A stretch of DNA of 64,000 nt from an uncultured Isoptericola sp. GTDB lineage: Bacteria; Actinomycetota; Actinomycetes; Actinomycetales; Cellulomonadaceae. Positions within the stretch are counted from its first letter, which is position 1. Every line of letters begins with the position of its first letter. The notes beneath the pieces were generated by a model that did not search any database, had not been told where the DNA came from, and worked only from the letters and a program-made list of their open reading frames with translations. Of this stretch, positions 5,627-7,230 are shown in pieces. The position numbers were made by a program, and so were the translations under genes. The stretch spans positions 248,001 through 312,000 of the forward strand of contig CANMFP010000003.1 of NCBI GenBank assembly GCA_947497265.1. The letters run 5' to 3'.

Positions 5627-7230
5627 GCGTGCGGGTCCGGGTCGCCCGGGACGACGTGCTGCTCGTGGAGGTCGCCGACCTGGCGGCCGCCACCGCTTTG
5701 CACCGCTCTCTGTCGAGCGCCCCGGTGCCCGGCGTCGGGCAGCCGGTGCCAGGGGCCCGGACGGTCCTGGTGCCGTTCGACCCGCGGGTCCTCCCCGCCA
5801 CGACGCTCGCCGCTGAGCTGCGCGCGCGGGCCGAGGTGCCGCCGTCGGGCACGGAGCAGCCAGGACGTCTCGTGGAGGTGCCCACGGTGTACGACGGCGC
5901 CGACCTGGACGGCGTCGCGGCCCACCACGGGTGGAGCGTGGCCGAGGTGGTGCGCCGGCACACGGGCGCCCGCTGGACGGTGGGGTTCGTGGGCTTCGCG
6001 CCCGGGTTCGGCTACCTCGTGGGCGACGACCCGGGGCTGGTGGTGCCGCGGCGGGCGAGCCCGCGCACGCGTGTCCCGGCGGGAGCGGTGGCCCTCGCCG
6101 GGCCGTACTCCGGCGTCTACCCGCGCGAGAGCCCGGGCGGCTGGCAGATCGTCGGGCGCACCGCCGTCGTCACCTGGGACGAACGGCGGGACCCGCCCGC
6201 GCTCTGGGTCCCGGGCGACCGCGTGCGGTTCGTGGCGGTGCGAGAGTCGGTGCGCGGTGTCTCGGCTCCGTTCGGCACTTCCGGCTCCGTTCGGCAGTCC
6301 GGACTGCCGAACGGAGCCGGAAGTGCCGAACGCGGCGCGCTGGAGGTGCTCGACCCGGGAGTGCAGACCCTCGTGCAGGACCTCGGCCGCCCCGGCCGGG
6401 CGGACCTCGGCGTCGCGACCTCCGGAGCCGCCGACCCCCGCAGCCTGCGCGCCGCGAACCGCGCCGTCGGCAACCCCGTCGACGCCGCCGCCCTGGAGAC
6501 TCTCGGCGGCCTGCGGCTCCGGGCGCACGGCCCCGTCGTGGTCGCCGTCACCGGCGCTCCCACCCCGCTCAGCACGGTGCCCGACGGCGGAGGCCCCGCC
6601 CGCCCGCACCGCCTCGGCCAGGCGTTCGCGCTGGCCGACGGCGACGAGCTGTCGATCGGGACGCCGACGCGCGGGCTGCGCAGCTACCTGGCGCTGCGAG
6701 GCGGCCTCGACGTGCCGGCCGTGCTGGGCTCACGTGCCACCGACGTCCTCGCCGGGCTGGGCCCCGACCCGGTGCGCGCCGGCACCCTGCTGCCCGCCGG
6801 GCCACCGCCGTCGGCCGCCGTGGCCCTGACCACGACGGGCGCGCCCGACCCGGCCACCCTGCCTGCACCGGGCGACGTCGCGACGCTGCCGCTGGTGCTC
6901 GGCCCGCGCGACGACTGGTTCACCCCCGAGGCTCTGCGGCTGCTCACCGAGCAGGAGTGGGAGGTCACGGCGCGGTCCAACCGCGTGGGGCTCCGGCTCG
7001 CCGGGGCGGCGCCGCTGGACCGGCGCTCCGCCGTCGCGCACGCCGAGCTGCCCAGCGAGGGCTGCGTCACCGGAGCGCTGCAGGTGCCGCCCGACGGCCA
7101 GCCGGTCCTGTTCCTCTCCGACCACCCCCTCACCGGGGGATACCCCGTCGTGGCCGCGGTGCCGACGGCAGACCTGTGGGTGGCCGGCCAGATGCCGCCC
7201 GGCGCCCGGCTGCGCTTCCGTGTGACGTGA
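5623..7230 (+). CDS. pxpBC: Fused 5-oxoprolinase subunits B and C (KipI-KipA type)
   Basis: The 535-residue product joins PxpB (about residues 1-212; [29 protein letters not shown] segment and the final VRFVAV strand) to PxpC (about 238-535; [19 protein letters not shown] to [15 protein letters not shown]). Together with PxpA it hydrolyses 5-oxoproline. The GTG at 5623 overlaps the pxpA stop. The joint between the two halves (about residues 214-237) is not protein-like. It is the translation of a perfect 64-base palindrome, suggesting that separate genes were joined when the hairpin became read-through. Confidence 0.93.
6269..6332. repeat. Perfect 64-bp palindrome inside pxpBC
   Basis: Bases 6269-6300 are the exact reverse complement of 6301-6332, with no loop. 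The arm itself holds a tandem repeat (GGCTCCGTTCGGCA at 6264 and again at 6283). The centre CGGCAGTCCGGACTGCCG is shared with the palindrome at 25584-25641. It sits exactly between the PxpB and PxpC domains and is read in frame as a Gly/Ser-rich linker. Confidence 0.95.

Follow-up and report, generated by a model that had tools for sequence, protein, structure and literature searches.

A perfect palindrome within the PxpB-PxpC fusion

The window, i.e. the whole stretch of 64,000 nucleotides analysed here (contig CANMFP010000003.1 of an uncultured Isoptericola sp.), contains at positions 5623-7230 of its + strand an uninterrupted open reading frame, which begins with a GTG codon overlapping the pxpA stop codon and encodes a fusion of PxpB and PxpC. 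The Pfam domains CT_C_D and CT_A_B cover residues 4-195 and 262-533, respectively; the NCBIfam model for PxpB extends to residue 204 and the urea_amlyse_rel/PxpC models start from residues 239-240, with scores below the curated cut-offs. The nearest named match of the fused protein is from I. halotolerans CG 23 (85% identity).

A preliminary description of this DNA had noted a perfect, translated 64-bp palindrome at the joint of the two proteins, and it is indeed found at positions 6269-6332 (+ strand), in frame with both. It had also been presented as the only linker between the two parts. It does lie in the linker but does not make up the whole of it: by arithmetic it touches residues 216-237, which accounts for 22 of the 39 residues there. 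A box, TCGGCA (TTCGGCA when extended by one base), is present twice in each arm, at a spacing of 19 bp. In the left arm the two copies occupy positions 6272-6277 (outer box) and 6291-6296 (inner box) on the + strand; in the right arm, positions 6305-6310 (inner) and 6324-6329 (outer) on the - strand, where the + strand reads TGCCGA. The two inner boxes are separated by 8 bp. In the whole genome there are exactly two copies of the 16-bp centre, GGCAGTCCGGACTGCC: this one and another at positions 25605-25620 of the window; this is the identity of centres with a palindrome at 25584 that had been pointed out. Very stable RNA hairpins are predicted at the joint for five Isoptericola sequences. This particular copy, however, is inside the reading frame and is followed by CGGCGCGC, whereas an intrinsic terminator would be an untranslated hairpin with a U run.

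A repeat family with two boxes in each arm

Comparison of copies gave a common layout: box, 13 bases, box, 8 bases, box', 13 bases, box', where the box is TCGGYR, in elements of about 58-84 bp. With up to 3 mismatches allowed, this four-box geometry was matched three times in the window; 100 dinucleotide shuffles gave 0.04 matches on average and never as many as 3. The same search gave 23 matches in the whole genome (two with 3 mismatches, one overlapping another match), which corresponds to about 20 copies of the family, and 22 in the nearest relative, G084 (G, C and L numbers are our handles for genomes, contigs and loci). The layout was matched in 17 of the 18 genomes of the genus, with 0-36 matches each as against 0-1 for a reversed pattern; a few of the 3-mismatch matches look like chance matches in coding sequence. 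No known RNA family was found at the element: the sole Rfam match at gathering level in the window is a SAM riboswitch (RF00162), at positions 56220-56327.

Besides the joint element, the window contains a second member of the family at positions 22537-22612 (boxes GATCGGTA and GATCGGCA, 19 bp apart), after an open reading frame at 17880-22517 that looks helicase-like by eye, a degenerate one at 24027-24084 (3 box mismatches) and a third at 25577-25648 (core 25584-25641, boxes TCGTCA and CCGGCA). The last of these is similar to the palindromes on either side of a nuclease gene in G084 (C2:195021 and 196120; see below). Between positions 22537 and 24084, two elements surround two genes; G084 has a single element and lacks the genes, which reflects either a gain here or a loss in the relative. 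By eye, the two genes encode a GntR-like regulator and a membrane protein.

The arms were compared for 100 of 131 sites from nine genomes; 11 sites of G021 and 20 mismatch-bearing matches (11 of them in G042), several seemingly genuine, were left out. The 13-base spacers, on which the search pattern sets no constraint, were 81% complementary between the two arms of an element, and perfectly so in 26 of the 100; between arms of different elements the values were 54% within a genome and 46% across genomes. Where genomes share a site, the differences between their elements run in parallel in the two arms. For 68 of the 100 elements, the closest other element was in the same genome, when 14.2 were expected. 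The joint element of G127, for instance, reaches 97% identity outside the boxes with other G127 elements and at most 65% with any other joint. Such clustering is not universal, since the joint element of the present genome does not resemble elements of its own genome (mean similarity 0.50, best 0.71) more than those of the others (mean 0.50, best 0.79).

The PxpB-PxpC fusion in relatives

The preliminary description had proposed that a 3'-end hairpin or mobile palindrome lying between pxpB and pxpC was converted into coding sequence and thereby joined the genes, and had suggested comparing the loci of relatives. This comparison was carried out. Among 24 translated loci (L011-L034), the joint is read through in 19 and a stop codon follows pxpB in five; in L030 the frame is open at the joint and stops later, inside pxpC. 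Fused loci are found in Microbacterium, Brevibacterium, Frigoribacterium and Kocuria, among others. Outside Isoptericola, 16 joints (among L015-L030) were considered, four of which were dropped because they had no anchor motif. A palindrome of the present kind was absent from all 12 that could be scanned, with best scores of 6-13 versus 30-35 for good ones.

The linkers were then compared for 30 loci of the GTDB family, 15 of them from Isoptericola. A family element with a hairpin score of at least 19 is present at the joint of seven Isoptericola loci (G000, G084, G021, G127, G103, G042 and G072). G116 has a hairpin of different sequence, and a decayed element can be made out by eye in G141, G156, G137 and G145, with the box pattern still matched in G137 and G141. 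Three loci are fused with no palindrome at the joint, their linkers having 30 (G058), 28 (G094) and 48 residues (G110). Hairpins of unrelated sequence were also found at the joint in three of the 15 family loci outside Isoptericola (G117, G031 and G122, of another genus; L108, L111 and L124); the linker thus seems to be tolerant and to have been struck repeatedly.

The position of the palindrome, exactly at the joint, is what speaks for its having joined two separate genes. As fused loci lack it in other genera of the Micrococcales and at 3 of 15 Isoptericola joints, the idea is unsupported, and we regard it as highly improbable unless all these loci have lost the palindrome. Most simply, the fusion is older and the element entered a linker that already existed; in G058, G094 and G110 the element may alternatively have been lost. 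The part of the original proposal that finds support is the mobility of the palindrome: it belongs to a repeat family, with copies inside genes and two sites that are empty in two relatives (see below).

Palindromes bracket the genes of an AbiEi-like/Vsr-like protein

Several elements are paired about 1.1 kb apart, with a gene of one and the same family in between. It encodes a protein of about 315 residues, predicted to combine an AbiEi-like N-terminal part and a Vsr-like nuclease part of the PD-(D/E)XK type. The AlphaFold2 model (mean pLDDT 91.7) gave as best solved structures in Foldseek Rv2827c (E 2.5e-5) and an AbiEi antitoxin (4.0e-5). Weaker matches were PvuRts1I (E 0.13, probability 0.85) and a nucleotidyltransferase (E 0.17), both ranking above Vsr (1cw0; E 0.53, probability 0.89), and I-Bth0305I (E 1.6, probability 0.60); over the Vsr-fold matches as a whole the probabilities range from 0.47 to 0.89. 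The PADLOC AbiEi models match all 28 aligned members; Pfam AbiEi_4 is found in 21 of them (below the curated cut-off in the first member) and DUF559 in one, and no HUH family appears among the PADLOC, Pfam and Foldseek matches listed. Six residues, E193, R197, D224, E235, D237 and K241, are invariant in the 28 members, and this conservation suggests that E193, D224, E235 and K241 may form the active site. In the taxonomic family, 176 of 200 genomes have a match to the 315-residue protein (E <=0.001), in some cases weak or partial. Neither the element nor the nuclease had a phage match, and the plasmid collection, searched with the nuclease only, returned one weak partial match, in an 11.85-Mb Nonomuraea record; a phage or plasmid origin was therefore not retained.

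The surroundings of 98 nuclease genes were searched for long palindromes. These genes are a non-random sample, most of them being the highest-ranking ones in a similarity search and a few being distant paralogues. A palindrome lies within 400 bp on both sides of 56 genes, on one side of 21 and on neither side of 21. For control pxpB/pxpC loci (101 of 103, two being too short, with approximate gene ends) the corresponding numbers were 0, 3 and 98. Palindromes are densest in the 200 bp after the nuclease gene (3.37 per kb; 66 palindromes), followed by the 200 bp before it (2.70 per kb; 53); the density falls to 0.88 at 200-400 bp upstream (17) and to 0-0.11 further out, where 7 were found on either side in flanks of 1-1.5 kb; only 2 are inside the genes. 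The median distance of the near palindromes is 16 bp after the stop codon and 136 bp before the start codon. At the C19 locus the nuclease gene is alone between its palindromes, with no room for a second gene.

Within a locus the two palindromes are alike: the median similarity of the upstream and downstream copies is 0.78, versus 0.17 for copies from different loci, and 55 of the 56 same-locus pairs score above 95% of the cross-locus ones. A word of at least 5 bases repeated within the arm at an offset of 14-26 was found in 104 of 127 distinct flanking elements, the offset being exactly 19 in 89 of the 104; the longest repeated word averages 7.20 bases, versus 3.49 in shuffled arms (the counts include elements from the same locus, which are not independent). 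The repeated words themselves differ widely, e.g. TCGGCA, GAGATCTGGT, GTTCGAGC and TCTGGTCGTCG. As each nuclease locus has its own box words at a fixed 19-bp spacing, the specificity could be read from the sequence.

A held-out set was made of the best genes from 29 more distant genomes of the phylum. Palindromes are present within 500 bp on both sides of 6 genes, on one side of 8 and on neither side of 15, and no palindrome was found elsewhere in the stretch examined. In 12 of these held-out elements the box repeat was at 19 in three (two loci), at 20 in two and absent in seven, so the boxes may characterise only part of the family.

The similarity of the elements tracks that of the enzymes. 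For 66 non-redundant loci, the correlation was 0.40, 0.48 and 0.43 with residues 1-85, 86-184 and 185-300, respectively, and no partial correlation was equalled in 500 permutations for any of these parts. A specificity residing in the N-terminal part does not emerge from this test: the correlation is spread over the whole protein instead of being concentrated in the presumed DNA-binding part. The numbers of nuclease genes and palindromes are not proportional, with 36 pattern matches for 3 nuclease matches in G072 and 5 for 6 in G103; G110 has a nuclease match and no pattern match.

A few particular cases were met. Two distant paralogues, C7:29229 in the present genome and C6:72747 in G084 (L225 and L229), are bracketed by a different palindrome, with TGTGGGTGCACGACGCGCCG arms. 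Seven homologues from the genus g8 (L187, L189, L190, L192, L194, L198 and L234) are without flanking palindromes and have possibly been domesticated.

Occupied sites, empty sites and copies inside genes

At two places, C7:86666 and C9:66555, the present genome has an 84-bp element where G084 and G021 have none. In sequence, both elements are almost identical to C1:353550 and to the pair bracketing the nuclease gene C3:210486-211415. No clear target-site duplication was seen at the two aligned empty sites, and extra bases are also present at the junctions. Three other sites (C1:64939, C1:353550 and C1:73002) look shorter in G084 too, with less clean junctions, and were not counted as empty. 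The comparison of C3:143283-144466 with the element at C2:137049 of G084 was discarded as an empty site, about 1.2 kb of other sequence being present here.

Elsewhere the site is occupied in both genomes by different sequences. At the G084 locus matching C3:210486-211415 the palindromes belong to another subfamily and the nuclease is 55% identical; the DNA between the palindromes is 70% identical and the outer DNA 86-92%, which indicates that the bracketed unit differs as a unit. At C3:99409 and its G084 counterpart C2:116338, the flanks match and both genomes have an element, but the element sequence is different.

Eight of 45 scanned element loci were confirmed as coding. Four are in pxpBC (L147, L157, L129 and L141, assigned by place) and three in cofC (L161, L127 and L133); the remaining one, L151, is in tilS. 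The tilS copy is C9:66555, and it is missing from the TilS proteins of G084 and G021; the cofC element is at the same place in G084, G116 and G132. The coding copies share one frame and give linker-like peptides, whereas another frame is open more often (98 versus 78 of 100 elements). Open frames through six further elements (L136, L142, L154, L159, L165 and L135) were not confirmed as genes. The CofC protein of G132 (L133) apparently contains a second in-frame peptide derived from a palindrome.

Interpretation and relation to known systems

We think it likely that these palindromes, about 64-84 bp long, are non-autonomous mobile elements with a cognate nuclease, which would very probably be the AbiEi-like/Vsr-like protein of about 315 residues. 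This reading accommodates the four-box anatomy of the family with its 19-bp spacing, the tight bracketing of many nuclease genes, the match between left and right palindromes within a locus, the two elements whose sites are empty in two relatives, the in-frame copies in pxpBC, cofC and tilS and the arms changing in lockstep. That the nuclease drives the spread of the palindromes is what we infer from this combination. The AbiEi-like part would bind the repeated boxes and the nuclease part would nick or cut either the palindrome, as a hairpin or a cruciform, or its target; host repair or replication might then copy the palindrome into the break, an event that would both spread it and overwrite older copies in place. 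The PxpB/PxpC linker would simply have tolerated such an arrival, one frame of the element being read there as a peptide rich in Gly, Ser and Pro.

Hairpins of another nature have to be considered. If the elements were transcription terminators or mRNA-stabilising structures, selection on the RNA would keep the arms paired and the joint hairpin could pause translation between the two domains. The very stable hairpins predicted at the joint, the two arms differing together and the 37 of 45 scanned loci that are not confirmed as coding would all fit. On the other hand, copies lie in frame inside pxpBC, cofC and tilS, they occur before as well as after the nuclease gene, the joint hairpin is absent in some species, and a terminator has no need of box words repeated at exactly 19 bp. 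Moreover, on the gene-sense strand the mismatches between arms show no clear G-U preference (GT 52 versus AC 48 upstream, 34 versus 57 downstream), which favours a constraint on DNA rather than on RNA; selection at the RNA level was accordingly set aside and this explanation appears unlikely. A regulon is another conceivable arrangement, in which the AbiEi-like protein, as regulator or nuclease, has operators on both sides of its own gene and coevolves with further ones, the dispersed palindromes. AbiEi and Rv2827c do repress their own promoters through several inverted repeats (PMC7319586), and the gene is preceded by palindromes (median distance 136 bp). Yet others come after it (median distance 16 bp from the stop codon), the spacers outside the boxes are complementary too (0.81 versus 0.54 between different elements of a genome), and copies are found in coding sequences and at sites that are empty in relatives; we consider a regulon rather unlikely.

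The small size, the palindromy and the presence/absence variation, as well as the two-gene segment between two elements that is present here and absent from G084, would suit a MITE, made of two fused terminal inverted repeats and moved by an ordinary transposase for which the nuclease genes are frequent cargo or targets. An origin of this kind from a resident transposon is weakened by the distribution of single arms: of 12 half-arm matches in this genome (TTCGGCA type, at most 1 mismatch), 11 are in known palindromes, the twelfth being C4:165430. Since, in addition, nuclease genes are bracketed across many genera by different palindromes, a MITE seems very unlikely.

A mobile palindrome with its own nuclease has parallels. 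In the REP/REPIN systems, palindromes are dispersed in the chromosome, a gene for a resident enzyme lies near copies, and enzyme and palindrome coevolve (PMC3116915, PMC8266576); REP palindromes measure 20-40 bp (PMC3733652). As in these REPtrons, the palindromes described here flank an enzyme gene and are dispersed elsewhere. They differ in being longer (about 58-84 bp), in having two boxes per arm 19 bp apart and in lying inside genes, and the enzyme differs as well: TnpAREP is an HUH enzyme related to those of IS200/IS605, whereas the present one is AbiEi-like and Vsr-like. The RAYT gene is itself flanked by REPs. To our knowledge, palindromic repeats with a cognate enzyme have been described only with the HUH-type RAYT proteins. 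The Rickettsia palindromic elements (RPE), of about 150 bp, are found in frame in unrelated genes according to a review (PMC10969869), in which we came across no cognate enzyme for them. The insertions in pxpBC, tilS and, in three genomes, cofC are comparable by description, although RPE belong to another phylum and have another anatomy. On the whole, the elements may be seen as analogous to REP/RAYT and RPE, with an unrelated enzyme.

For the protein, the nearest parallels are those of its two parts. The predicted fold of the N-terminal half is that of AbiEi-type antitoxins and Rv2827c, of type IV toxin-antitoxin systems, which bind several inverted repeats in promoters (PMC7319586); the present protein has in addition a nuclease-like domain, and C19 has no second gene between its palindromes, whereas AbiE systems have an adjacent toxin gene for a DUF1814 nucleotidyltransferase. 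The C-terminal part is likened to Vsr and I-Bth0305I by its predicted fold, with weak E-values, and by the invariant acidic and lysine residues. We know of no link between Vsr endonuclease or I-Bth0305I and palindromes. AbiEi, DUF559 or Vsr-like genes with flanking palindromes were not found among the matches listed for titles and abstract openings in PMC, a collection that mostly leaves out subscription journals and preprints; a Vsr-like protein of Caulobacter is the subject of PMC12907096.

Taken further, the elements could represent an undescribed class of mobile DNA in the Actinomycetota, in which an AbiEi-Vsr fusion nuclease bracketed by palindromes spreads them, overwrites older ones whenever a new allele arrives, such that the arms and many copies evolve together, and writes peptides into PxpBC, CofC and TilS; on the present evidence we see the case for this broader proposal as evenly balanced. 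If it is true, a second and unrelated type of enzyme has palindromes of its own, i.e. this lifestyle arose more than once, and a function is suggested for a common gene family which carries here only weak AbiEi or DUF559 labels. Large perfect palindromes are normally thought to be unstable, and the proposal would bear on how they persist and stay nearly perfect. The in-frame copies in conserved enzymes would amount to a natural experiment on the gain of linkers in proteins.

Two other hairpins of the window are without the 19-bp box repeat. The one at positions 27955-28011 is long, shares arm words with C3:94029-94089 of the same genome and is perhaps a terminator or a member of a different repeat family. 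The one at 9615-9668 looks ordinary and has a counterpart in G084 at C2:242335.
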